This document shows positions 5,391-19,091 of a stretch of DNA of 35,345 nucleotides, piece after piece (position 1 is the first letter of the stretch; every line of letters begins with the position of its first letter). The stretch is from positions 1-35,345 of the IMG/VR virus record IMGVR_UViG_3300042015_000142. One strand, written 5' to 3'. The notes under the pieces are model-generated. The model saw only the letters and a program-made list of their open reading frames with translations. It had not been told where the DNA came from and searched no databases. The DNA is from a virus. Position numbers and translations under genes: made by a program.

Positions 5391-7099
5391 GCGTGCTGAC
5401 CGAGGGCGCAGTCGAAGCCCTCCGCGTGATCTACACCCAAGGGTCCGACGCCGACCGTGAACGGGCCCGCCTCGAGCTCGTCGCCCGCGGCCTCATCGCC
5501 GACCCCGCCGGGGAACTCCGTGCCGAGATCCGCGCCGGCGGGCCCATGCTCCTCGGTGAACGGCTCATGCCCGACACCGTGTACGGGGCACGCTCCCCCC
5601 TGCACGACTTCCTCAACGACTGGCACCTCCGCGAAGCGGCCGGCCGACCCGGCGCCCGGTCCGGGTGCGCCGCCCCCCGCGGGCACGGCAAGTCGACCGC
5701 GGCCGTCGAGCTGGGCGCCCTGTGGCACGCCGCGAACTGCACCCGCCGCTTCCAGGTCATCATCAGCGACACGTACGAGCAGGCCGTCGGCCGCGTGCAG
5801 GCCATCAAGGGGGCCGTCGAGACGAACGACGAACTCCGCGACACGTACCCGAAGCTCCGGCCAGCGTTCGGCCGTGGCGAGCCCGGCACGTGGCGGGAGA
5901 ACGACCTCGTCTTCGCCTGCGGATGCCGCATCATCGGCCTCGGTGCAGGGACCTCCATCCGTGGCCTCAAGCACCGTGACGCCCGGCCCGACCTCGTGTA
6001 CCTCGACGACCTCGAGGACGAGACGTCCGTGTCGACGCCCCACCAGATCGAGAAGCGGCTCAAGTGGTTGACCCGGACCGCCCTCAACCTGGGGTCGCCC
6101 ATCAAGGGCCTCTCCGTCCTGTGGGTGGGGACGATCCTGTCGCGCGACGCCCTCCTCAACCTCGTGACCGGGGCCGCGCTCGACGAGGGGCAGACCCGCC
6201 CCCGGTGGGCGCAGATGTGGTCCCCGACCGTGTTCCGTGCGGAGATCGAGGGGTCGGAGCGGATCTCCACCACGGCGACCGTCGAGGACCCCATCACGAA
6301 GGCCCTGTTTCAGGTCACGTACGACGTCGGCGAGCCGATGTGGTCGGAGCTCACTCGTGAGGACCTCGCGAAGATCCGCGGCGGTGTGGGCGATGCCGGG
6401 TACGCCGCGGAGTACATGGCCGACCCCGTGGACGGCAAGGGCGGGATGCTCGTCGCACCGCAGCTCGCGTCGTGGGTGAACCCGCAGTACCCGCCCCGGG
6501 ACCGCCTCATCCGGTGGTCGCGCACGGACGGGCCGGGCCGTACTGCGGCGTCGGGTGTCGCCGCGGTGGCGAACCTCACCATCGCGGCAGCGCTGGACCC
6601 GCAGTTCGCGGAGGTCACCGGGAGCAACGACCCGGACCTCGCAGCGATCGTCGTCGTCGGTCAGCTCGGGGCGGAGTCGTTCATCCTCGACGCGTGGATC
6701 GGCCGGGACAAGGTCGGGCAGGCGCAACGCCTCGTGACGATGGCGCTCAAGTGGGGGGCGTTCGCCGCCGGCGTCGAGGTCGTCGCGGCACAGGTGCTCG
6801 TCGCGGACGAGGCAGCGCAGCTCGCGGCCATCCCGATCATCCGGGAGCCGGCGACGGACGGGAAGGAGGTGCGGGCCCTGTCGGCGTCGGTGCGGTTGAC
6901 GCAGGGGCGCGTGCACCTCCTCGCGACGGAGGGGGATGCGGCGGACCTGCCGAAGTACCTGACGGCGTTCCCGAACGGGCGGTACAAGGACCCGGTCGAC
7001 GCGTTCGTGATGGCGCAGAACATCGCGGCGCGGGCGACGCCGGTGCAGACGGGTGGGGTGTCGTCGGGTCCGTCGGTGGGTGGTCCCCGTTCGGCGTAG
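5387..7099 (+). CDS. Terminase large subunit
   Basis: ATP-driven DNA packaging motor and nuclease. The 570-residue protein has a Walker A motif (APRGHGKST, residues 96-104) and a Walker B motif with following acidic residues (LVYLDDLED, residues 203-211). A coupling-like segment (LSVLWVGT) follows, and the C-terminal RNase H-like nuclease starts near IAAALDPQFAE with the late acidic motif DPVDAFVMAQN. The GTG at 5387 overlaps the preceding stop; a longer upstream reading only extends into the mini zinc protein in another frame. The protein appears intact and of normal length. Confidence 0.93.
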   Translation: MSVLTEGAVEALRVIYTQGSDADRERARLELVARGLIADPAGELRAEIRAGGPMLLGERLMPDTVYGARSPLHDFLNDWHLREAAGRPGARSGCAAPRGHGKSTAAVELGALWHAANCTRRFQVIISDTYEQAVGRVQAIKGAVETNDELRDTYPKLRPAFGRGEPGTWRENDLVFACGCRIIGLGAGTSIRGLKHRDARPDLVYLDDLEDETSVSTPHQIEKRLKWLTRTALNLGSPIKGLSVLWVGTILSRDALLNLVTGAALDEGQTRPRWAQMWSPTVFRAEIEGSERISTTATVEDPITKALFQVTYDVGEPMWSELTREDLAKIRGGVGDAGYAAEYMADPVDGKGGMLVAPQLASWVNPQYPPRDRLIRWSRTDGPGRTAASGVAAVANLTIAAALDPQFAEVTGSNDPDLAAIVVVGQLGAESFILDAWIGRDKVGQAQRLVTMALKWGAFAAGVEVVAAQVLVADEAAQLAAIPIIREPATDGKEVRALSASVRLTQGRVHLLATEGDAADLPKYLTAFPNGRYKDPVDAFVMAQNIAARATPVQTGGVSSGPSVGGPRSA

Positions 7100-9747: not shown

Positions 9748-9768
9748 CCCTCCCGCAACGTGTATGGT
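9740..9768 (+). promoter_or_regulatory. Promoter for the DNA methyltransferase
   Basis: TTGCTT (9740-9745), a 17-nt spacer and TATGGT (9763-9768), with CAACGTG before the -10 box as at 33604-33610. The palindrome position (9744-9754, TTGACCCTCCC) is degenerate, keeping only GAC and TC. The leader is about 40 nt and contains AGGAG (9797-9801) before the ATG at 9811. Confidence 0.6.
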
Positions 9769-9810
9769 CTACCTACTGCACCACCGCCGACCGACAGGAG
9801 CCACGCCCCC

Positions 9811-11082
9811 ATGACCACCCTGCCCCTCGGGCCCTACGTCGACCTGTTCGCAGGCCCCGGCGGATGGGACACTGGCATCCGCGACCTAGGCGTCATCCCC
9901 CTCGGGATCGAATGGGATGACGCCGCCTGTGAGACGGCACGCGCGGCCGGGCACTCGCGGATGCGTACCGACGTCGCCGCCGCCAACCCTGCCGGGGTAG
10001 CCCGTCTCCTCGGGCACGGTGGCGTGCGTGGCCTCATCGCCTCCCCGCCGTGCCAAGGGTTCTCCACCGCCGGCAAGGGCAAGTCCCGCGACGACTCCGA
10101 GCACCTCCTCAAGCGGCTCGCCGACGTCCACACCCGCACCGACCTTGAGGACGCCATCCGCGACCTCACACCCACCATGACCGACCCCCGCACCCTCCTC
10201 GTCCTCGAACCCCTCCGGTGGGCCCTCGCCCTCACCCCGTCGTGGCTCGCGTGGGAGCAGGTCCCCGGCGTCCTGCCCCTGTGGGAAGCGTGCGCGGACG
10301 TGCTGCGCCGCATCGGGTACACCGTCGCGACCGGGGTCCTGTCCGCGGAGCAGTACGGCGTGCCGCAGACGCGCCGTCGCGCGATCCTCGTCGCCCGCGC
10401 CCCGTGGTTCACCCGCGAGCACGGGCCCGCGACCCTGCCCCCGGCGACGCACTCCCGGTACTACTCGCGTGACCCGCAGCGCCTCGACCCGGGCGTCCTG
10501 CCGTGGGTGAGCATGGCGTCCGCCCTCGGGCGTGGCATGACTGCACGCCCGTCCATGACCGTCACCGGCGGCGGCACGGGCGCCGGTGGTGCGGAGCCGT
10601 TCGGGCACGGAGCCCGTGACGGGATGCTCCGTGAGCTGGAGGCGGGCCGGTGGGTGCAGCGGTCCAACTACTCGACGGGCTCCTCCGACGGCAGCACCGC
10701 AGCGGAGAGGGGCCGGACGGAGCGGGCCCTTGACCTGCCCTCGACGACGGTGACGTCAAAGGGGTTCCAGTGGCGCCCGGAATTCAACGACCAGTCGGGG
10801 ACCCCGTTCGACCCGACTTGGCCGGAGCAGCCCGCGACCGCCGTCGCCGGGCGTGGGCTCGTGCAGAACCCGGGCGCGACCGCGAACCGGTACAACGGGT
10901 CGACGAAGTCCCGTAACGACGGAGTCCGCGTCACGGTGCAGGAGGCCGCGATCCTCCAGTCGTTCCCCGCCGACTACCCATGGCAGGGGAAGTCGGGGGC
11001 GCAGTACCGGCAGGTCGGCGACGCCGTCCCGCCCCTCCTCGCACGGGCGATCGTGAAGCACGTCGCCGCGATCGACGACTGA
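9811..11082 (+). CDS. DNA (cytosine-5)-methyltransferase
   Basis: Transfers methyl from S-adenosylmethionine to cytosine C5. Conserved motifs in order: I, DLFAGPGGWDTG (residues 11-22); IV, SPPCQGFS with catalytic Cys81; VI, WEQVPG (Glu149 in the ENV position); VIII, QTRRRAILVAR (from residue 186); IX/X, EAAILQSFP and VGDAVPPLLA (residues 402-411). The 423-residue length is normal and all key residues are present. I chose the ATG at 9811, which has AGGAG 9 nt upstream and begins just before motif I. No restriction enzyme gene is adjacent, so it is an orphan enzyme, likely used to protect phage DNA. It has its own promoter and terminator. Confidence 0.95.
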   Translation: MTTLPLGPYVDLFAGPGGWDTGIRDLGVIPLGIEWDDAACETARAAGHSRMRTDVAAANPAGVARLLGHGGVRGLIASPPCQGFSTAGKGKSRDDSEHLLKRLADVHTRTDLEDAIRDLTPTMTDPRTLLVLEPLRWALALTPSWLAWEQVPGVLPLWEACADVLRRIGYTVATGVLSAEQYGVPQTRRRAILVARAPWFTREHGPATLPPATHSRYYSRDPQRLDPGVLPWVSMASALGRGMTARPSMTVTGGGTGAGGAEPFGHGARDGMLRELEAGRWVQRSNYSTGSSDGSTAAERGRTERALDLPSTTVTSKGFQWRPEFNDQSGTPFDPTWPEQPATAVAGRGLVQNPGATANRYNGSTKSRNDGVRVTVQEAAILQSFPADYPWQGKSGAQYRQVGDAVPPLLARAIVKHVAAIDD

Positions 11083-11141: not shown

Positions 11142-13688
11142 ATGGCAATCCTCGACAAGCTCCGCGGCCGGCGTCCGGCGCAGGAGCTCGCAGCGAACCC
11201 CCGCCCGCAGGCCGTCGACGGCGAGAAGCCGGAGATTGGCGAGCAGCTCGGAGAGTACGGCGGACCCACGTCCGGCGCGTTCGCCGGCGTCACGACCATC
11301 GTCGACGCCCGCGGCCGACAGGTCGCGCAGCTCCTCAACGCGTCCAAGCTGACCCCGCAGATCATCCGCGCCATGCGCGACCACCCGCAGGTCACCGCGT
11401 GCCTCGCCGCGCAGTCCCTCCCGCTCCTGCGGGCAAAGTGGACGATCGAGTGTGAGGACGACGCGCAGCGCGACACCCTCACGACCCTGTACGAAGCGAT
11501 CCACGCCCGGGTGATCCGGTCCGGTGCCCGGTCCCTGTGGGCCGGGTACTCGCCCAACGCCCTTGAGTGGGACATCGACCCGGAGACGGGTGCTCTCACC
11601 GTCGTCGGCATCCGTGACCTCGACCCGTACACGTGCACCGCGACCGTCGACGACGCCGGCGACTACGAGGGGTTCGAGCAGAACGCCCGCGGCCGGAAGA
11701 TCCCCGTAGGTGCCCTCGAGTCCCTGTGGATCGTCGAGGGGATGGAGTCCGGGAACCTCTACGGGCGCCCGCTCCTGACGCCCGCGCGGGAGCCGTGGCA
11801 GGCGCAGCAGGCCATCGCCCTCTACCACCTGCGCTACCTCGAGCGGTTCGGCGAGCCTGCCGTCAAGACACGCGCCCCGGAGGGCACGACAGACCTCAAC
11901 GCGCAGGCCCGGCAGGCGGCGATGGTCTGGAACGCGGACCACCCGGACGACCTGCACGAGGTGCCCGACGTCAACCTCGTCTCGAACGTCGACCTCGCCG
12001 TCGACCTCGGGACGAACCTGCGTCACCACTCCGTGATCGGCCTCCCTTCGACACAGGCCATCGGCCCGGACGGCAAGCCGGTCGGGTACGCGTGGGACCT
12101 GGAGTACCTCACGGCCGGCGGCAACGGGGAGGCGTTCCTCGCCGCCATCGCCGCGCAGGACCGCAGCATCGCCCGCGCGATGCTCGTGCCGTCCCTCCTC
12201 ATCGAAGGTGGCGACACCGTCGGGTCCAACGCCCTGGGGGAGTCGCACCGGGACACATTCACACAGAACGTTGAGGCCCGCCTCGCGGACTACGCGGCGC
12301 AGATCACGGAGCACCTCCTCGACCGCATCGTCGATTTCAACTACGGCACCTCGGCGCCGCGGGCCCGGCTCGTGTTCGCGCCCGTGTCGGACGAGGCCAT
12401 CGAGAAGCTGTGGGGCATCGTCACGACCCTCGTCGCCGGGAAGGGCATCGCCCTGGACGTGCCCGCCATCGCGGCCCGCCTGGGCCTGCCCGTGGCGTTC
12501 TCCGAGGACGACGAGCCGGACCCCGTCGAGGCGTCCCCGTTCACGTCCGTCGGCCTGCCCGCGCTCGTCGCCGCAGGCATCATCAGTGCGGAGGAGGCCC
12601 GCATCCTCATCGGTGTCGAGGGGCCCGCTCCTGCGCCGGCGGAAGTCGACGCGGCCCTCGCGGCCGGGCGCACGGGGAACGTGATGCTCGCCCGCGCCAT
12701 CCTCGGACTCGACGACGTAACGGTCCTCACCTCCGCGCACGCGCACGGGCCCGGGTGCCGTCACGACGACGCCGCGCAGCTCGCCGCCGCACCCCCGGAC
12801 GTCGAGGGGATGCCGGAGTGGAAGCTGCCCGCGTCCTACGACCCGTCGGGGTTCGCCCGTGAGCTCAACGCCCGCGAGCGCCGGGTCGACTTCCTGTCCC
12901 TCGAGCGGGACCTCAACACGTTCGAGGCGCAGACCATCGACGAGCTCGTCGCCCTCCTGGAGAAGTCCCGCGACGCGGTGTCCCGGCAGGTCGCCGGCGT
13001 CATGCGCAAGGGCGGGACGGTCGCGGAGGTCGTCGCCGGGCTGTCGACGGTGAACGTGGGCCCGGTGGCGCCGTGGGTGACGGCGTGGCTCGACCTCCAG
13101 ACCGAGGTGTGGGGCACGGGCCTCGCGTCGGTCACCCGGGAGCTGGAGGCGTTCGCGGACGTCATCCCGGGGAAGATCGGCCGCGACGGCATGGCGCTCG
13201 TGAAGGCGTACGCGCAGACCTCCGCGGAACGGACCCTCGTCGACCTGTCGACCCGGGTGCAGCTCGAGCTCGTCGCCGCGTTCCGGTCCGGGGTGTCGAC
13301 GGTCGGCCTGCAAGCGACGGTCGCGCAGCTCTACGACGAGGAGATCCGCGGGGAGAGCAAGCCGCCCCGGTTGACGACGCGGATGCTGTCGAGCAAGGCC
13401 CTCAACGCGTCCCGCGCGGATGCCATCGAGCGGGGCGGGATTCAGCTCGCGGGTGCGCAGTACTCCGCGATCCTGGACAAGCGGACGTGCGCCCTGTGCG
13501 AGCGGCTCGACGAGCAGCTCATCGGGATCGCGGACCGCGACTTCGAGAAGTACACGGCGCCGGTGCACTTCAACTGCCGGTGCGTGTGGGTGTACGTGAC
13601 GGCGGAGGAGGAGGGGTTCGTGCCGAACTGGTCGAGCCCGCCGCGGTCGATGGTGGAGCAGTACGGGGGCCTCGTGTTCGGGTCGTGA
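11142..13688 (+). CDS. Portal protein fused to a MuF-like minor capsid domain
   Basis: Forms the DNA-entry ring of the capsid. Residues about 50-430 resemble Mu gp29-type (DUF935) portals, with ASKLTPQIIRAMRDHPQV, YSPNALEWDI and NLYGRPLL motifs. After a linker with an HAHGPGCRHDD cluster, the C-terminal region is helical and ends in a MuF signature, LDKRTCALCERLD (Cys783, Cys786) followed by PVHFNCRCVW (His809, Cys812, Cys814), probably zinc-binding. Portal and MuF are usually separate genes; here one 848-residue frame encodes both without a break. It starts as a leaderless mRNA. Confidence 0.9.
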   Translation: MAILDKLRGRRPAQELAANPRPQAVDGEKPEIGEQLGEYGGPTSGAFAGVTTIVDARGRQVAQLLNASKLTPQIIRAMRDHPQVTACLAAQSLPLLRAKWTIECEDDAQRDTLTTLYEAIHARVIRSGARSLWAGYSPNALEWDIDPETGALTVVGIRDLDPYTCTATVDDAGDYEGFEQNARGRKIPVGALESLWIVEGMESGNLYGRPLLTPAREPWQAQQAIALYHLRYLERFGEPAVKTRAPEGTTDLNAQARQAAMVWNADHPDDLHEVPDVNLVSNVDLAVDLGTNLRHHSVIGLPSTQAIGPDGKPVGYAWDLEYLTAGGNGEAFLAAIAAQDRSIARAMLVPSLLIEGGDTVGSNALGESHRDTFTQNVEARLADYAAQITEHLLDRIVDFNYGTSAPRARLVFAPVSDEAIEKLWGIVTTLVAGKGIALDVPAIAARLGLPVAFSEDDEPDPVEASPFTSVGLPALVAAGIISAEEARILIGVEGPAPAPAEVDAALAAGRTGNVMLARAILGLDDVTVLTSAHAHGPGCRHDDAAQLAAAPPDVEGMPEWKLPASYDPSGFARELNARERRVDFLSLERDLNTFEAQTIDELVALLEKSRDAVSRQVAGVMRKGGTVAEVVAGLSTVNVGPVAPWVTAWLDLQTEVWGTGLASVTRELEAFADVIPGKIGRDGMALVKAYAQTSAERTLVDLSTRVQLELVAAFRSGVSTVGLQATVAQLYDEEIRGESKPPRLTTRMLSSKALNASRADAIERGGIQLAGAQYSAILDKRTCALCERLDEQLIGIADRDFEKYTAPVHFNCRCVWVYVTAEEEGFVPNWSSPPRSMVEQYGGLVFGS

Positions 13689-13705: not shown

Positions 13706-13750
13706 TGAACCGGCCGCGCGTGCACCCCCCTGCCATGCGCGGCCGGTTCA
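13706..13750 (+). terminator. 14-bp hairpin after the portal gene
   Basis: TGAACCGGCCGCGC (13706-13719) and GCGCGGCCGGTTCA (13737-13750) are perfectly complementary with a 17-nt loop. It lies between the portal stop and the promoter of the surface-protein gene and should separate the two transcripts. Confidence 0.7.
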
Positions 13751-13753
13751 CCC

Positions 13754-13783
13754 TTGTCGGGACGGTCCCGGTACGTGTACGGT
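13754..13783 (+). promoter_or_regulatory. Palindrome-type leaderless promoter of the surface-protein gene
   Basis: TTGTCG (13754-13759), an 18-nt spacer and TACGGT (13778-13783). The spacer carries the palindrome GGGACGGTCCC (13759-13769) and GGTACGTG, the same layout as at 1740 and 7100. The palindrome is preserved although its outer bases changed on both arms, from C to G at position 2 and from G to C at position 10. The ATG follows 6 nt after the -10 box. Confidence 0.7.
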
Positions 13784-13789
13784 GACGCC

Positions 13790-14359
13790 ATGAGACACCT
13801 CACCCGCGCACTCGCGCTCACCGCCGCACTCCTGCTCGCCCTGTTCGCCCTGTTCGCCGGCGTCACCGCCGCCAGCGCCACGGGCGGAGGCCACGGGCAC
13901 GACCCCGTGACCATCTGCCACAACGGCCACACGATCACCGTCGACGACGACGCCGTCCCCGGGCACCTCGAGCACCACGAGGGCGACACCCTCGGCGCGT
14001 GCCCGGTCATCCCGACCGAGGAGCCCGCACCCACCGACGAGCCGACCGAGACTCCGACCGAGGAGCCCACGGAGACGCCCACGGAGGAGCCCACACCGAC
14101 CGAGGAGCCGACCCCGACGGACGAGCCCACCGACCCGACACCCACGGACACCCCGACTATCCCCCCCACCACCGTCCCGCCTGTCACCACGCCCCCTGCG
14201 GCCGAACCCGCACCCGTGACCGAGATCCACACCGCCGCCGCACGCACGACCCTCGCGTCGACCGGACCAGCCGATGGCGTGTGGTGGCTCGTGGGCCTGA
14301 TCGCCGTCGTCGCTGGCGTCACCCTCGTCGCGATCTCCCGCAGGCGCACCCGCGCATGA
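13790..14359 (+). CDS. LAxTG-anchored cell-wall surface protein
   Basis: Residues 1-30 are a signal peptide ending ASA. Residues about 39-72 form a small domain, VTICHNGHTITVDDDAVP then HLEHHEGDTLGACP, that recurs in bacterial surface proteins and may hold a disulfide (Cys43-Cys71). Residues 74-140 are a Thr/Pro/Glu stalk of degenerate TEEPTETP repeats. LASTG (155-159), a hydrophobic helix (about 164-183) and SRRRTRA complete a sortase sorting signal. The product should be exported and covalently anchored to the host wall. It is not a virion protein type, although it sits between portal and protease. The ATG at 13790 is set by the -10 box 6 nt upstream. Confidence 0.85.
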   Translation: MRHLTRALALTAALLLALFALFAGVTAASATGGGHGHDPVTICHNGHTITVDDDAVPGHLEHHEGDTLGACPVIPTEEPAPTDEPTETPTEEPTETPTEEPTPTEEPTPTDEPTDPTPTDTPTIPPTTVPPVTTPPAAEPAPVTEIHTAAARTTLASTGPADGVWWLVGLIAVVAGVTLVAISRRRTRA

Positions 14360-14499
14360 CCGGCCGTCGGTTCGTCGGGTTCTGCCTCCTCGTCGCAGGG
14401 GTCGCCGTCATCCTCGGATGGGGTCCCGACCACGGTGCCAACGGGGCGACGTTCCTCGGCATCGCCCTCGCCCTCGGAGGCATCGTCCTCGCGGACTGA
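14356..14499 (+). CDS. Small two-helix membrane protein, 47 aa
   Basis: The ATG overlaps the stop of the surface-protein gene (ATGA), so the two are co-translated. It is two hydrophobic helices (FVGFCLLVAGVAVILGW and ATFLGIALALGGIVLA) joined by a short turn, with a basic N-terminus. It is probably a partner of the surface protein. No family recognised. Confidence 0.6.
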   Translation: MTGRRFVGFCLLVAGVAVILGWGPDHGANGATFLGIALALGGIVLAD

Positions 14500-14511: not shown

Positions 14512-14547
14512 CTGCGCCCCGGCCGCACCTACGCGACCGGGGCGCAG
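14512..14547 (+). terminator. 11-bp hairpin after the surface-protein pair
   Basis: CTGCGCCCCGG (14512-14522) and CCGGGGCGCAG (14537-14547) pair perfectly with a 14-nt loop, immediately upstream of the tailspike promoter. Confidence 0.7.
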
Positions 14548-14556
14548 CCGTGTCGG

Positions 14557-14562
14557 TACGAT
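14557..14562 (+). promoter_or_regulatory. Leaderless promoter -10 box (TACGAT) of the tailspike gene
   Basis: TACGAT lies exactly 6 nt (CCCCCC) before the ATG at 14569. There is no Shine-Dalgarno site and no palindrome. Confidence 0.6.
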
Positions 14563-14568
14563 CCCCCC

Positions 14569-16863
14569 ATGACCCTCCCCGCTGGCGTCGTCACCGCACA
14601 CCTCACGTTCGCGCCACCGACCGACGACACGGGCGACCTCGTCGAGAAGGGCCGTGTCACCCTCCTCGCCTCGACGGATCGTGTGTGGGAAGCGACCGGG
14701 GAGCTCATCCTCAAGCGGAACGTCGTCGTGAAGCTCGACGGCGCCCCGCAGGTCATCCCCTTCGCCGCGACCGACCAGCCGGGAATGGTGAACGGCGCCG
14801 GCGAGCCCATCATCGATTGGACGATCGACGCCGTCATCGACTACGGCAACGGGCGCCCCCGGCAACTCGTCACGTTCGCCCTCCCCACGGGCGGGGTCGA
14901 CGGCCTCGTCGTGGACTTCTGGCGCCTCGTCCCGGTGGAGCAGTCCGACGGCAGCACGATCGCCGTCACTACGGTCACATCCGTCGGGGGACTCGTCGGT
15001 CCTGTCGTCGCCGACCAGCTCGCCGGGAAGCTGAACCGGGTCGACCTCCGGGCCTACCTCGAGCCGTTCGAGCTGTTCCCGAACGACGGCATCGCGGACG
15101 CGGCACCCCTGTTCCGTCGCGCGGTCGACGCGATCGGCGCCGCCGCGGGCATCATGGGGCCTACCGCTATCAGCGTCCCAGCGGGCCGCTACCGGATCGA
15201 CTCTACGATCTACTGGAAGTCCGGGGTTGGCGTCATCGGGCAGGGGTACGGGAACACCGTCATCGCCCCCACAGGTCAGGTCGTGTTCGGGGCACAGTCG
15301 GGCACCACGTTCGCGCAGATCGGATGGTTCGACGACGTCGTTTTCGCCGACCTCACGATCGACTGCACCGCGCAGACCGGGCCCGCCAACCAGGTGGGGA
15401 TCAAGGGCGTCGCCCTGCGCTACCTGCGGGACTCCCGCTTCGAGAACGTGTGGATCATCAACTCGTGGGCCACGTCGTTCGGGTGCGACTACCTGCAAGA
15501 GACAAAGTTCATCAACTGTGTCGCCATCAACGCGGGCCGCGGTGTCAACGTCGGGTCGTGGTCGTTCGGGTCCGGGTTCGGCATCGGTGTCGGGGAGTTC
15601 GCGAACGAGTCCGTCGCGATCCTCGGGTGCACCTCCCTCGGGGCACAGTCGGCCGGGGTGTTCATCGAGCGCCTCCCGATCATCGACACCCCCGCGGAGG
15701 GGAACGGGTTCATCGTCGCCAACTTCACGGCCCGCGGGAACTACAACGGGGCACTCCTCGCCGGCGGGCACAACGTGCAGATCCTCGGCGGCGACTACTC
15801 CGAGAACGTGTTCTCGGGCATCGCGTTCAACGGCCCGAACGGGGGCCGCACCGGGGACAAGGGCGCCCTCATCACAGGTGTGAAGGTCCGCGGCAACGGC
15901 ACCAGTGGGGAGGCCGGGTGCGGCGGCATCGTCCTGCGGCACGCCGGGGAGGGCGGGTCGACGATCGCCGATTCCGACATCATCGGCAACACCGGGCCTG
16001 GGATCTACGCCCCCGCGACCGCGCAGCTCGGCCCGGGGTGGGCGTTCAACGACCTCCGGGTCGAGGGGAACACCGGGGGTGGCATCATCCTCGACAACAA
16101 CCTCTGTGTGGGCGTCCGCATGGCCGGCGGGGTGGTGCGCAGCAACGGCGACGGCGACGGCATCCGACTCTCCGGGGACCTCGTCGAGCCAGTCATCCGC
16201 AACATGGTCGTGCAGGGTCACACCGGGTGGGGCATCAACCTGCCTGGGCCGACCCTGACGTGTGCTCGCCCGTGGATCGAGGGGAACGTCGTCTCGGAGA
16301 ACCGGGCCGGGGGGTTGCAGAACCTCAAGGACACCCCCGACACGTCGCGCATCCTGTCGAACTGGTCGGGCCCGGCCCTGTCGACGGCGAATCAGACGGA
16401 GCACCCGACGAACGCCGGCAGCGTCGCTCATGTTGTCGTCGAGTCGGGGTTCACCGTCGCTTCGGTGGCGGGTGCGTGCCCGTCCGGGTCGGGCACGTTC
16501 ATCCGGGGCACCGCGACGGCGAACGGGTCGATCACCCTTCGACCGGATAAGAAGTCCGACGCCGCGCTCTCGACTAAGACGGTGACGTATTCGTGTTGGC
16601 TGAGGGTGTCGAATCCTCTCGCCGTCATCCGCGTCGGTGGCACCGCGTACTACGGGGCAGGCACGGATCAGCGGACGTGGATGAACGGTGGCGTCCGGCC
16701 AACGCTCGACTGGCAGCGGGTGAGTATCACGATCCCGATGCCGACGACGGGCAAGCGGGCGAACCTCGTGATCGCCCTGGACTCCGCGACCATCGGCGAC
16801 ACGCTCGATGTGGACGCCATTGCGCTCACGGAGGGTACGTGCCTGTGGCCGTGGACGGCCTGA
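14569..16863 (+). CDS. Tailspike or receptor-binding protein with pectate-lyase-like beta-helix
   Basis: The 764-residue protein has an N-terminal beta domain (about 1-150), likely for virion attachment. Next comes the usual entry of a right-handed beta-helix: FPNDGIADAAPLFRRAVDAI, then ISVPAGRYRIDSTIYW and VGVIGQGYGNTVI near residues 200-235. The helix runs to about residue 570 with repeated Gly/Asn turns. The C-terminal 150 residues form a jelly-roll-like module (RVGGTAYYG, DWQRVSITIP, LDVDAIALTEG) resembling carbohydrate-binding domains. It probably binds or degrades a host surface polysaccharide. Its place between portal and capsid protease is unusual, since spikes normally follow the tail genes. 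Confidence 0.8.
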   Translation: MTLPAGVVTAHLTFAPPTDDTGDLVEKGRVTLLASTDRVWEATGELILKRNVVVKLDGAPQVIPFAATDQPGMVNGAGEPIIDWTIDAVIDYGNGRPRQLVTFALPTGGVDGLVVDFWRLVPVEQSDGSTIAVTTVTSVGGLVGPVVADQLAGKLNRVDLRAYLEPFELFPNDGIADAAPLFRRAVDAIGAAAGIMGPTAISVPAGRYRIDSTIYWKSGVGVIGQGYGNTVIAPTGQVVFGAQSGTTFAQIGWFDDVVFADLTIDCTAQTGPANQVGIKGVALRYLRDSRFENVWIINSWATSFGCDYLQETKFINCVAINAGRGVNVGSWSFGSGFGIGVGEFANESVAILGCTSLGAQSAGVFIERLPIIDTPAEGNGFIVANFTARGNYNGALLAGGHNVQILGGDYSENVFSGIAFNGPNGGRTGDKGALITGVKVRGNGTSGEAGCGGIVLRHAGEGGSTIADSDIIGNTGPGIYAPATAQLGPGWAFNDLRVEGNTGGGIILDNNLCVGVRMAGGVVRSNGDGDGIRLSGDLVEPVIRNMVVQGHTGWGINLPGPTLTCARPWIEGNVVSENRAGGLQNLKDTPDTSRILSNWSGPALSTANQTEHPTNAGSVAHVVVESGFTVASVAGACPSGSGTFIRGTATANGSITLRPDKKSDAALSTKTVTYSCWLRVSNPLAVIRVGGTAYYGAGTDQRTWMNGGVRPTLDWQRVSITIPMPTTGKRANLVIALDSATIGDTLDVDAIALTEGTCLWPWTA

Positions 16864-16935: not shown

Positions 16936-18192
16936 GTGAGCACCGACACCGCACTCGCGCCGTGGGCGCCGACGCAGCACGACCGCGACGCGTTCGGCCG
17001 CGTGACCGCCGCCGCCCGCAGCATCGACGCCGCAGACGAAACGGGTGCCGTCACCCTCCGTGGCGTGTCGGAGGCGAACCTCGCCGCCGGGTCCGACATC
17101 CTCACCGGGATCTCCCTCGTCAAGATCGGCACCTTCAACGGGTACTTTGAGGTCAACCGCGAGAACCTCGACGCGTGGGTGTCCCGGTTCGGCGAGCTGT
17201 ACCCCGACACCTTCGAGCCGCCCCTCCGCCTCAACCACTCGTGGGACATCGAGTCCGTCATCGGGTGGTTCACGAACCTCCGCGTCGAACTGCGCCCCGA
17301 CCTCGCGGCTGGCGGGAAGGACGTCCCGATGCTCGTGGGTGACGTCCGTCTCTGCGGCACCGCGGCGGAGAACGCGCAGATCCGGGCGTGGATCAAGTCG
17401 GGGAAGCTGTCGAAGGTGTCGTCGGAGTTCTGGCCGTACCACACGAACGCCGGGGTCGAGTACCCGTCGGTGTTCGCGGGCGCCGCCTTCGTCGACATCC
17501 CGGCAGCGGAGGGCCTCGGCCCGATCGCGCTTCGCCGTGCCACACTGGACCGCAGCAGCACCGACACCCCGGAGGGGACCACCGTGAGCGACACGACCGC
17601 AGCACCCGCACCTGTCGAGGGCGACGCCCCTGTCGTCGAGGAGACGGCGCCGGCGCCGGTCGTCGAGCAGGAGCCCACCGCCGACCCGGCGCCCGTCATC
17701 GGCGACGAGCCGGAGCCGGAGCCCGCCGCGGACCCCGAGCCCGAGCCGGACCCCGTCGACGAGGTGCCGGCCGACCTCGCCGCCGCCCTGTCGTCCCTCG
17801 GCGTCAACCTCGACGCCCGGCAGGGTGCCGCGCTCGCCGCGGAGCTCGACCGCCGGGTCGCCCTGCGGGTCGAGGCCGACACCCGCATCGCGAAGTTCCG
17901 CAGCAAGGGCGTCATGCCCCTCAAGGTCGCCGACAAGCTCGAGGCCCTCCTGCGCCACGACGACGCGGACGTCCGCGACACCCTCGCGGAACTCCTCGAG
18001 ATCGCGCAGCCGCCCGTCACCCTCCGCTCCCCCGCGGGCGTGCACGGCGTCGAGCCGTCGAACGAGGACGGCACCCCGACCCCCTCGGAGCTCCGCGCGA
18101 TGGACTTCGAGGAGTACACGGAGGCGTGGGCCGCGCTCACCTCCGAGCAGCGCAAGTCCCCGGAGTACAAGGCCGTGTACCGCGAGTCCTGA
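16936..18192 (+). CDS. Capsid maturation protease with C-terminal scaffold (Mu I-like)
   Basis: Residues about 40-210 match the Mu gpI-like prohead protease pattern: PPLRLNHSWDIESVIGWFTNL with His101, a MLVGDVRL strand, then SGKLSKVSSEFWP with Ser162/Ser163 as the likely nucleophile. From about residue 215 the protein becomes an acidic Pro/Glu linker (EPEPEPAADPEPEP), followed by helical segments typical of scaffolds (about 275-418). The enzyme should cut the scaffold during head maturation. A second start at 17584 would produce the scaffold part alone. It is followed directly by the major capsid gene, as expected. Confidence 0.82.
   Translation: MSTDTALAPWAPTQHDRDAFGRVTAAARSIDAADETGAVTLRGVSEANLAAGSDILTGISLVKIGTFNGYFEVNRENLDAWVSRFGELYPDTFEPPLRLNHSWDIESVIGWFTNLRVELRPDLAAGGKDVPMLVGDVRLCGTAAENAQIRAWIKSGKLSKVSSEFWPYHTNAGVEYPSVFAGAAFVDIPAAEGLGPIALRRATLDRSSTDTPEGTTVSDTTAAPAPVEGDAPVVEETAPAPVVEQEPTADPAPVIGDEPEPEPAADPEPEPDPVDEVPADLAAALSSLGVNLDARQGAALAAELDRRVALRVEADTRIAKFRSKGVMPLKVADKLEALLRHDDADVRDTLAELLEIAQPPVTLRSPAGVHGVEPSNEDGTPTPSELRAMDFEEYTEAWAALTSEQRKSPEYKAVYRES
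17584..18192 (+). CDS. Probable nested scaffold protein (internal in-frame start)
   Basis: GGAGG (17571-17575) lies 8 nt before an in-frame GTG (17584, codon 217 of the protease gene), exactly where the protease domain ends. Initiation here gives a 202-residue acidic, helical protein with no protease domain. Lambda Nu3 within gene C, and Mu Z within I, use the same in-frame arrangement. The second product is inferred from the ribosome-binding site and domain border. Confidence 0.55.
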   Translation: MSDTTAAPAPVEGDAPVVEETAPAPVVEQEPTADPAPVIGDEPEPEPAADPEPEPDPVDEVPADLAAALSSLGVNLDARQGAALAAELDRRVALRVEADTRIAKFRSKGVMPLKVADKLEALLRHDDADVRDTLAELLEIAQPPVTLRSPAGVHGVEPSNEDGTPTPSELRAMDFEEYTEAWAALTSEQRKSPEYKAVYRES

Positions 18193-18251: not shown

Positions 18252-19091
18252 ATGGCGACCACCGCAACGACCGACGTGACCGCGTGGATCCCGGCGCTCA
18301 TCAGCTCCGCCGTCTACGACACGACCCTCGCCCCGCTCAACCCCCTGTCGGTGTGGGCGGAGAACTACGGCGAGCTCGAGGGGCGCCCCGGCAGCTCCGC
18401 GACCATCCCGACCCTCTCCCCGACGACCCCTGCCGACAACCTCGCGGAGACGGTCGCGGCCGTCGACGACAAGATCGCCGGCGCCGGCGTCACGGTCACC
18501 ATCAAGGAAGCCGTGAAGTCGATCGCGTACACGGACCGCGTCAAGGTGCAGTCGGGCCCGAACGTGAACCAGATCGCCGGGCAGCGCGTCGGGCAGGCCA
18601 TCAACGACCGCATTGAGCTCGACCTCGGCGCCGCCGCGGTCGCCGGCCGGACGATCGCTTCCGACACGGCGGCGGCGTCCCTCACGCCGACCGTGTTCCG
18701 TACGATGCGCTCGAAGATCGCCCCGGCGCTGCGCCGCCGTGGCGTCACCCTGTTCGCGCCGGCCGCGGCCCTCGACGGCCTGTACTCCGACGCGACCTTC
18801 CAGTCGGCTGCGACGTGGGGCAGCACGGAGGGCCTCCGCGAGGGCACGGTCGCCCGCTACCAGGGCATCGACATCGCGGAGATCGACGACGCCACGCTCC
18901 CCGTCATCACCGCGACGAAGGTCACGGTCATGATGATGACGAAGGGCGCCCTCATCCGGGCCGTGCAGCGTGGCCCGCAGGTCGAGACGGAGCGGGACGC
19001 CCGCGCCCGCATCACCCGCATCGTCGGCACCGTGTTCCACGGTGAGGGTGTCGTCGACGCCCGCGGCATGGTCGCCGGGATCATCGGCTGA
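18252..19091 (+). CDS. Major capsid protein
   Basis: The 279-residue protein follows the protease-scaffold gene and has the features of an HK97-fold capsid protein of the N4-gp56-like type. The N-terminal arm has VWAENYGELEG, then PGSSATIPTLSP, the segment TVTIKEAVKSIAYTDRVKVQ, a helix with QRVGQAINDRIELDLG, and a C-terminal beta region ending HGEGVVDARGMVAGIIG. The ATG at 18252 has AAAGG (18234-18238) upstream; the frame is open further upstream but only as a shadow of the scaffold gene. No cleavable delta domain is present, which fits a separate scaffold. Confidence 0.85.
   Translation: MATTATTDVTAWIPALISSAVYDTTLAPLNPLSVWAENYGELEGRPGSSATIPTLSPTTPADNLAETVAAVDDKIAGAGVTVTIKEAVKSIAYTDRVKVQSGPNVNQIAGQRVGQAINDRIELDLGAAAVAGRTIASDTAAASLTPTVFRTMRSKIAPALRRRGVTLFAPAAALDGLYSDATFQSAATWGSTEGLREGTVARYQGIDIAEIDDATLPVITATKVTVMMMTKGALIRAVQRGPQVETERDARARITRIVGTVFHGEGVVDARGMVAGIIG

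Follow-up and report, generated by a model that had tools for sequence, protein, structure and literature searches.

Between the portal and head maturation protease genes of the phage analysed here lies a gene for a 189-residue protein with the successive parts of a sortase substrate, which is very likely to be anchored on the host cell wall. The best explanation of the gene as a whole, to which we give not quite an even chance on the strength of its sequence, would be a mobile accessory gene (moron) for a host-surface protein that alters phage adsorption. The window, that is, the whole stretch of DNA analysed, is the complete IMG/VR virus record of 35,345 bases (GC 71%). Because of this GC content, the Microbacterium-like capsid protein and the Gordonia/Rhodococcus-like portal, the phage was placed among the actinophages; its closest portals are those of Rhodococcus and Gordonia phages (28% identity) and its closest capsid proteins those of Microbacterium phages (28%). 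A scan of the genome collection by portal alignment returned one unrelated MAG contig and nothing else, and a scan of the viral contig collection with the capsid protein gave no matches. The features of the region are as follows.

9760-11082, + strand: DNA methyltransferase gene
11142-13688, + strand: portal and Mu-F-like fusion gene (Portal_Mu, E 6e-35; Phage_Mu_F, E 9e-10)
13706-13750, + strand: hairpin with a 17-bp stem between the portal and LAxTG genes (-40.8 kcal/mol, z -7.9)
13778-13783, + strand: leaderless -10 box TACGGT, six bases before the ATG
13790-14359, + strand: predicted LAxTG surface protein gene, 189 aa (ATG at 13790, stop at 14359)
13790-13879, + strand: predicted signal peptide, residues 1-30, cleavage ASA|TGGG (sequence, hydropathy)
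13880-14005, + strand: small domain TGGGHGHDPVTICHNGHTITVDDDAVPGHLEHHEGDTLGACP, residues 31-72, with Cys43 and Cys71 (conserved in viral contigs)
14006-14251, + strand: Thr/Pro/Glu-rich stalk, residues 73-154 (82 residues)
14252-14266, + strand: LASTG sorting motif, residues 155-159
14279-14338, + strand: C-terminal membrane helix, residues 164-183 (20 residues; hydropathy)
14339-14356, + strand: basic tail RRRTRA (sequence)
14356-14499, + strand: 47-aa two-helix membrane ORF, overlapping the stop of the LAxTG gene by ATGA
14512-14547, + strand: hairpin with a 15-bp stem closing the cassette (-32.9 kcal/mol, z -4.8)
14569-16863, + strand: beta-helix (tailspike-like) gene (Pfam Beta_helix, E 1.5e-5, just below the cut-off)
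16936-18192, + strand: head maturation protease gene (phrog_976, E 1.9e-10)
18252-19091, + strand: capsid protein gene

The portal and the Mu-F-like head morphogenesis domain form one protein of 848 aa; the Gordonia and Rhodococcus portals examined have ~570-590 aa.

The earlier note had described the gene product as a complete sortase substrate, and our analysis confirmed each of its parts, namely a signal peptide, a small domain, a stalk, LASTG, a helix and a basic tail, with LAFTG in an independent homologue. By inspection and hydropathy, the predicted signal peptide shows a basic start, a hydrophobic core and a TAASA end, and the protein is hydrophobic at residues ~3-33 and ~161-185. The Cys43/Cys71 domain reads VTICHNGHTITVDDDAVPGHLEHHEGDTLGACP and comprises 42 residues with two cysteines. 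When all ORFs of the window were scanned for [LIVM][PASGE]x[TS][GASN] together with a hydrophobic stretch and a basic tail, this ORF was the only one found, and L[AP]xTG at the correct distance from the C-terminal helix has a chance of ~1e-3. LAXTG has been shown experimentally to be a class E sortase signal in soil and freshwater Actinobacteria (PMC5148588). The curated sorting-signal models TIGR01167 (12.8 versus a cut-off of 15.9 bits), NF058582 (16.2 versus 27 bits) and NF058583 'LAXTG_small_WW' (22.1 versus 65 bits; E 8.5e-5) all scored the protein below their cut-offs, so that its assignment as a sortase substrate rests on the ordered motif architecture and on conservation. No sortase gene was found in the 35,345-base record, as is expected if the host supplies the enzyme. 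A Pfam PARP match of the LAxTG protein (E 2.8e-4) was discarded as a low-complexity artefact, since a Glu/Pro-rich stretch of the head protease matches the same model.

The overlap with a gene for a 47-residue membrane protein also held up: the two ORFs are joined by ATGA, and the GC contents at the three codon positions are coding-like in both (0.70/0.61/0.90 for the 189-aa ORF, 0.74/0.51/0.87 for the 47-aa ORF). Profile searches gave no family match for the 47-aa ORF. A function as holin is unlikely for it, since the region at 30.8-33 kb carries an M23 peptidase gene and encodes a membrane protein with a holin-like sequence.

Scanning viral contigs with the whole LAxTG protein revealed a homologue of 320 aa in a 21.5-kb virus contig (L065, with L067), and this homologue carries the main argument. 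It has a signal peptide, the small domain and two stalks, the first of them T/P-rich, with an additional domain between the two, and it ends in LAFTG, a helix and a basic tail; identity to residues 1-71 (signal peptide and domain) is 59% in the best segment of the match and reaches 73% over 33 aa of the domain. At 15 identical codons of the domain, the two genes differ by four synonymous changes and no amino-acid change. The curated sortase-signal models gave no match to the homologue. The contig encodes its own GP7-type capsid protein, tape measure and CHAP-like lysin, and the LAxTG gene is the only gene common to it and the window phage, the other window proteins being unmatched; in particular, the 47-aa ORF has no homologue there. 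Its copy is encoded past the structural and lysis genes and runs convergent to them; it has a leadered start with a ribosome-site-like sequence and no same-strand tailspike gene beside it. A sole shared gene at a different position argues for transfer of the gene between unrelated phages, and retention of the LAxTG anchor in both copies while X changes (S, F) argues that anchoring matters. Taken together, these comparisons of sequence mark the LAxTG gene as a probable mobile accessory gene in which selection maintains the wall anchor.

The small domain itself is conserved in this contig and in five other viral contigs. An AlphaFold model based on six sequences gave a domain core at pLDDT 90-93, consisting of a beta hairpin and a helix, and a structure search with the domain returned no significant PDB or BFVD match; endonuclease-associated modules were rejected as relatives, their structural matches being weak (E about 1). 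Other viral contigs, most of which have a lower GC content, encode the domain without an anchor. In four of them (L051, L052, L054 and L055, near position 6000; GC 0.43-0.48), a VxxCHNG...GDTLGPCP domain stands in proteins lacking a sortase signal, with Gly-rich proteins nearby. A tblastn search of the phage database with the full protein, its domain, the L001 domain and a self-written consensus-like probe yielded no genuine match, the matches in Amgine (wrong strand) and Kowalski (a different protein) being spurious. The plasmid collection likewise gave no match, and a match in L066 was set aside as that of a low-complexity, low-GC contig.

The position of the gene within the head module is not supported as something special, as the portal-protease interval varies in related Gordonia phages. 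Among 38 portal-related viral loci and five phage records, no gene-like ORF with a signal peptide, sortase-type motif, helix and basic tail was found. The gene is thus absent at the portal-related loci and present in an otherwise unrelated phage, which is the distribution that marks a moron. The gene that occupies this variable slot in Gordonia phages has a conserved start of ~140 aa, whereas its rear part varies and is beta-helix-like in Monty. At the slot loci L006, L007, L008 and L033-L046, the swapped C-termini (beta-helix and others) belong to proteins annotated as tail or minor tail protein. The beta-helix gene of the window, which adjoins the LAxTG cassette and is putatively tailspike-like, fills an equivalent slot; no relationship was detectable between its N-terminus and that of the Gordonia slot/fibre proteins, and its structure model (pLDDT 35) was unusable.

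Regarding expression, the gene had been credited with a palindromic promoter of its own; what precedes it is the leaderless -10 box TACGGT, of a type shared by seven phage genes. In seven of 28 genes (starts at 11142, 13790, 14569, 16936, 23772, 26387 and 30779), a TANNNT motif is found precisely 12 bases upstream of the start codon; its background frequency is 0.0008 per position (P about 3e-16). TANNNT ~12 bp upstream of the start is a recognised mark of leaderless genes in Actinobacteria (PMC3160421; PMC3898074). The genes with this box are mostly structural and include those of the portal, protease and tape measure; the box of the beta-helix gene is at 14557. Four of the seven boxes directly follow strong U-tract-less hairpins, and the hairpin at 13706-13750 is likely to be a terminator of this kind. 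The flanking hairpins noted earlier are real, as their z values indicate, but they are not specific to the cassette, since similarly strong ones lie upstream of the portal, LAxTG, beta-helix and protease genes alike. In its box and hairpins, the LAxTG cassette follows the pattern seen across the late region, and the type of promoter suggests that the gene is expressed with the structural genes.

Several known systems resemble parts of this arrangement. Llp of phages T5 and BF23 hinders further phage adsorption, and llp adjoins the gene of the receptor-binding protein (PMC9586334, PMC4728585). The window protein is similarly a candidate surface protein of the infected cell whose gene lies beside a putative host-recognition gene, but Llp is a periplasm-facing outer-membrane lipoprotein of Gram-negative hosts, whereas the window protein is a Gram-positive-type sortase substrate. 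The two have no known sequence relation; receptor blocking is a property of Llp and would be a putative one of the window protein, and the neighbouring gene in the window is tailspike-like. Gram-positive Sie proteins such as lactococcal Sie2009 are also phage-encoded envelope proteins of a Gram-positive-type host (PMC4737114); by description they are membrane-associated and block DNA injection, whereas the window protein is predicted to be a wall-anchored stalked domain. Another phage-borne sortase substrate is that of Javan536, which has a signal peptide and C-terminal anchor but differs in its size (582 aa), SIALI-17 repeats and LPSTG motif (class A type), and in its location near an antirepressor gene, outside the head module. 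Its gene (L057:1420-3165) is annotated merely as a truncated hypothetical protein. On the host side, the Streptomyces long chaplins ChpA-C and Actinoplanes CwpA/CwpB are class E sortase substrates as well (PMC5148588, PMC13251363); these belong to the bacteria themselves, carry either hydrophobic chaplin regions or disordered ones, and have a domain unlike that of the window protein.

In the mechanism that we propose, a leaderless transcript would arise from the same kind of promoter as those of the portal, protease and tape-measure genes, and the protein would leave the cytoplasm by the Sec route, its signal peptide being removed behind ASA. With its C-terminal helix and the residues RRRTRA it would stay in the membrane until a class E sortase of the host cleaves LAST|G and attaches the protein to peptidoglycan, so that the small disulfide domain could reach through the wall on the Thr/Pro/Glu stalk; the membrane protein of the overlapping 47-aa ORF would probably help with this display or take part in it. 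On the cell surface thus altered, further phage, and after lysis sister virions, would fail to adsorb productively. The idea of such a surface role derives from the llp-oad precedent of T5, the adjacent beta-helix gene and the late-type leaderless promoter. Exclusion or receptor masking is the most plausible role, although we give it somewhat less than an even chance. The second copy, with its leadered start and without a same-strand tailspike neighbour, weakens the pairing with a receptor-binding gene and fits a general-purpose moron, lysogenic conversion included. A mobile actinophage gene family that hijacks the class E sortase as a wall-anchored counterpart of Llp, placed beside the tailspike and expressed with structural genes, is in this specific form rather unlikely. 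From its sequence features, we file the gene as encoding a putative moron-like, sortase-type surface protein and withhold a superinfection-exclusion class, whose defining feature is an effect on phage plating.

Lysogenic conversion, in which a prophage-made wall protein would benefit the host through adhesion, surface properties or metal/ligand binding with no anti-phage role, is a real possibility that we nevertheless think less than probable. The mobility of the gene, independent of phage type, speaks for it, as do the second copy, which has a ribosome-site-like sequence of its own and borders the structural module on the other strand, a common location of morons expressed in lysogeny, the large LPSTG surface protein encoded by the Streptococcus prophage Javan536, and the occurrence of the same small domain in anchor-less proteins. 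Against this stands the promoter type, which in the window is that of the portal, protease and tape measure, and the gene content of the 35-kb record, possibly incomplete, where a LexA-type DNA-binding domain was found but no integrase or repressor.

A protein packaged in the virion or displayed on the capsid would be consistent with a gene that lies between portal and protease and shares their promoter type. This reading is very improbable, as a signal peptide and a LAxTG-helix-basic tail are the wrong anatomy for a virion assembled in the cytoplasm, related phages lack the gene, and the homologue lies outside the head module of its phage. The claim that the protein is not a virion part is thus probably correct, since the parts of the protein recur in an unrelated phage although X is another residue there and the gene stands elsewhere. 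Competition for the sortase, whereby the protein would flood the host class E enzyme and strip or dilute host proteins used as receptors by other phages, draws on the ~50-aa proteins of other actinophages that consist of a LAxTG-like motif, a helix and a basic tail; no signal peptide is present in these, which could be ordinary membrane proteins, and the window protein retains a conserved folded domain and a stalk that competition would not need, which makes this an improbable account. It is hardly credible that a bacterial gene without function for the phage was accidentally assembled into, or carried by, the record: as far as can be detected, the domain type appears not to be phage-specific, but the gene is embedded on the same strand between portal and protease with phage-style hairpin and leaderless promoter, and a second phage has a homologue.

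To return to the preferred reading of a moron for a host-surface protein, the phage products known to remodel Gram-positive surfaces are for the most part membrane proteins, lipoproteins and enzymes that modify sugars, and a phage protein anchored by class E sortase and kept in unrelated actinophages would, if true, add a covalent, wall-level change of the infected-cell surface. The statement that the arrangement has no standard name was wrong in kind, since this is a moron-type accessory gene with a precedent in the LPSTG protein of prophage Javan536. Prophage LPxTG proteins such as the latter are already known, and Arthrobacter and Microbacterium phages have small membrane proteins of LAxTG type. 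Neither the phage database nor the open-licence literature searched showed a complete wall protein of class E type common to unrelated actinophages, and the text searches of open-licence papers yielded none on LAxTG proteins in phages. A scan of the viral contig collection for the small LAxTG proteins gave no matches. These small proteins, gp78 of SilentRX and gp66 of Ajin and Sparcetus, share with the window protein a C-terminal signal (40-43% identity) made up of a LAxTG-like motif, a helix and a basic tail, but are ~50 aa long, lack a signal peptide and domain and are encoded beside a glycosyltransferase gene; they are possible minimal sortase-type substrates. Arthrobacter phage SilentRX gp78 (L056:2980-3132) has LAYTG and scores above the curated LPXTG-anchor cut-off, and gp66 of the Microbacterium phages Ajin and Sparcetus (L058:2441-2590, L059:1432-1581) has LAATG with a different spacing after the motif. 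All share a MYG... start, one helix and a KVKP tail.
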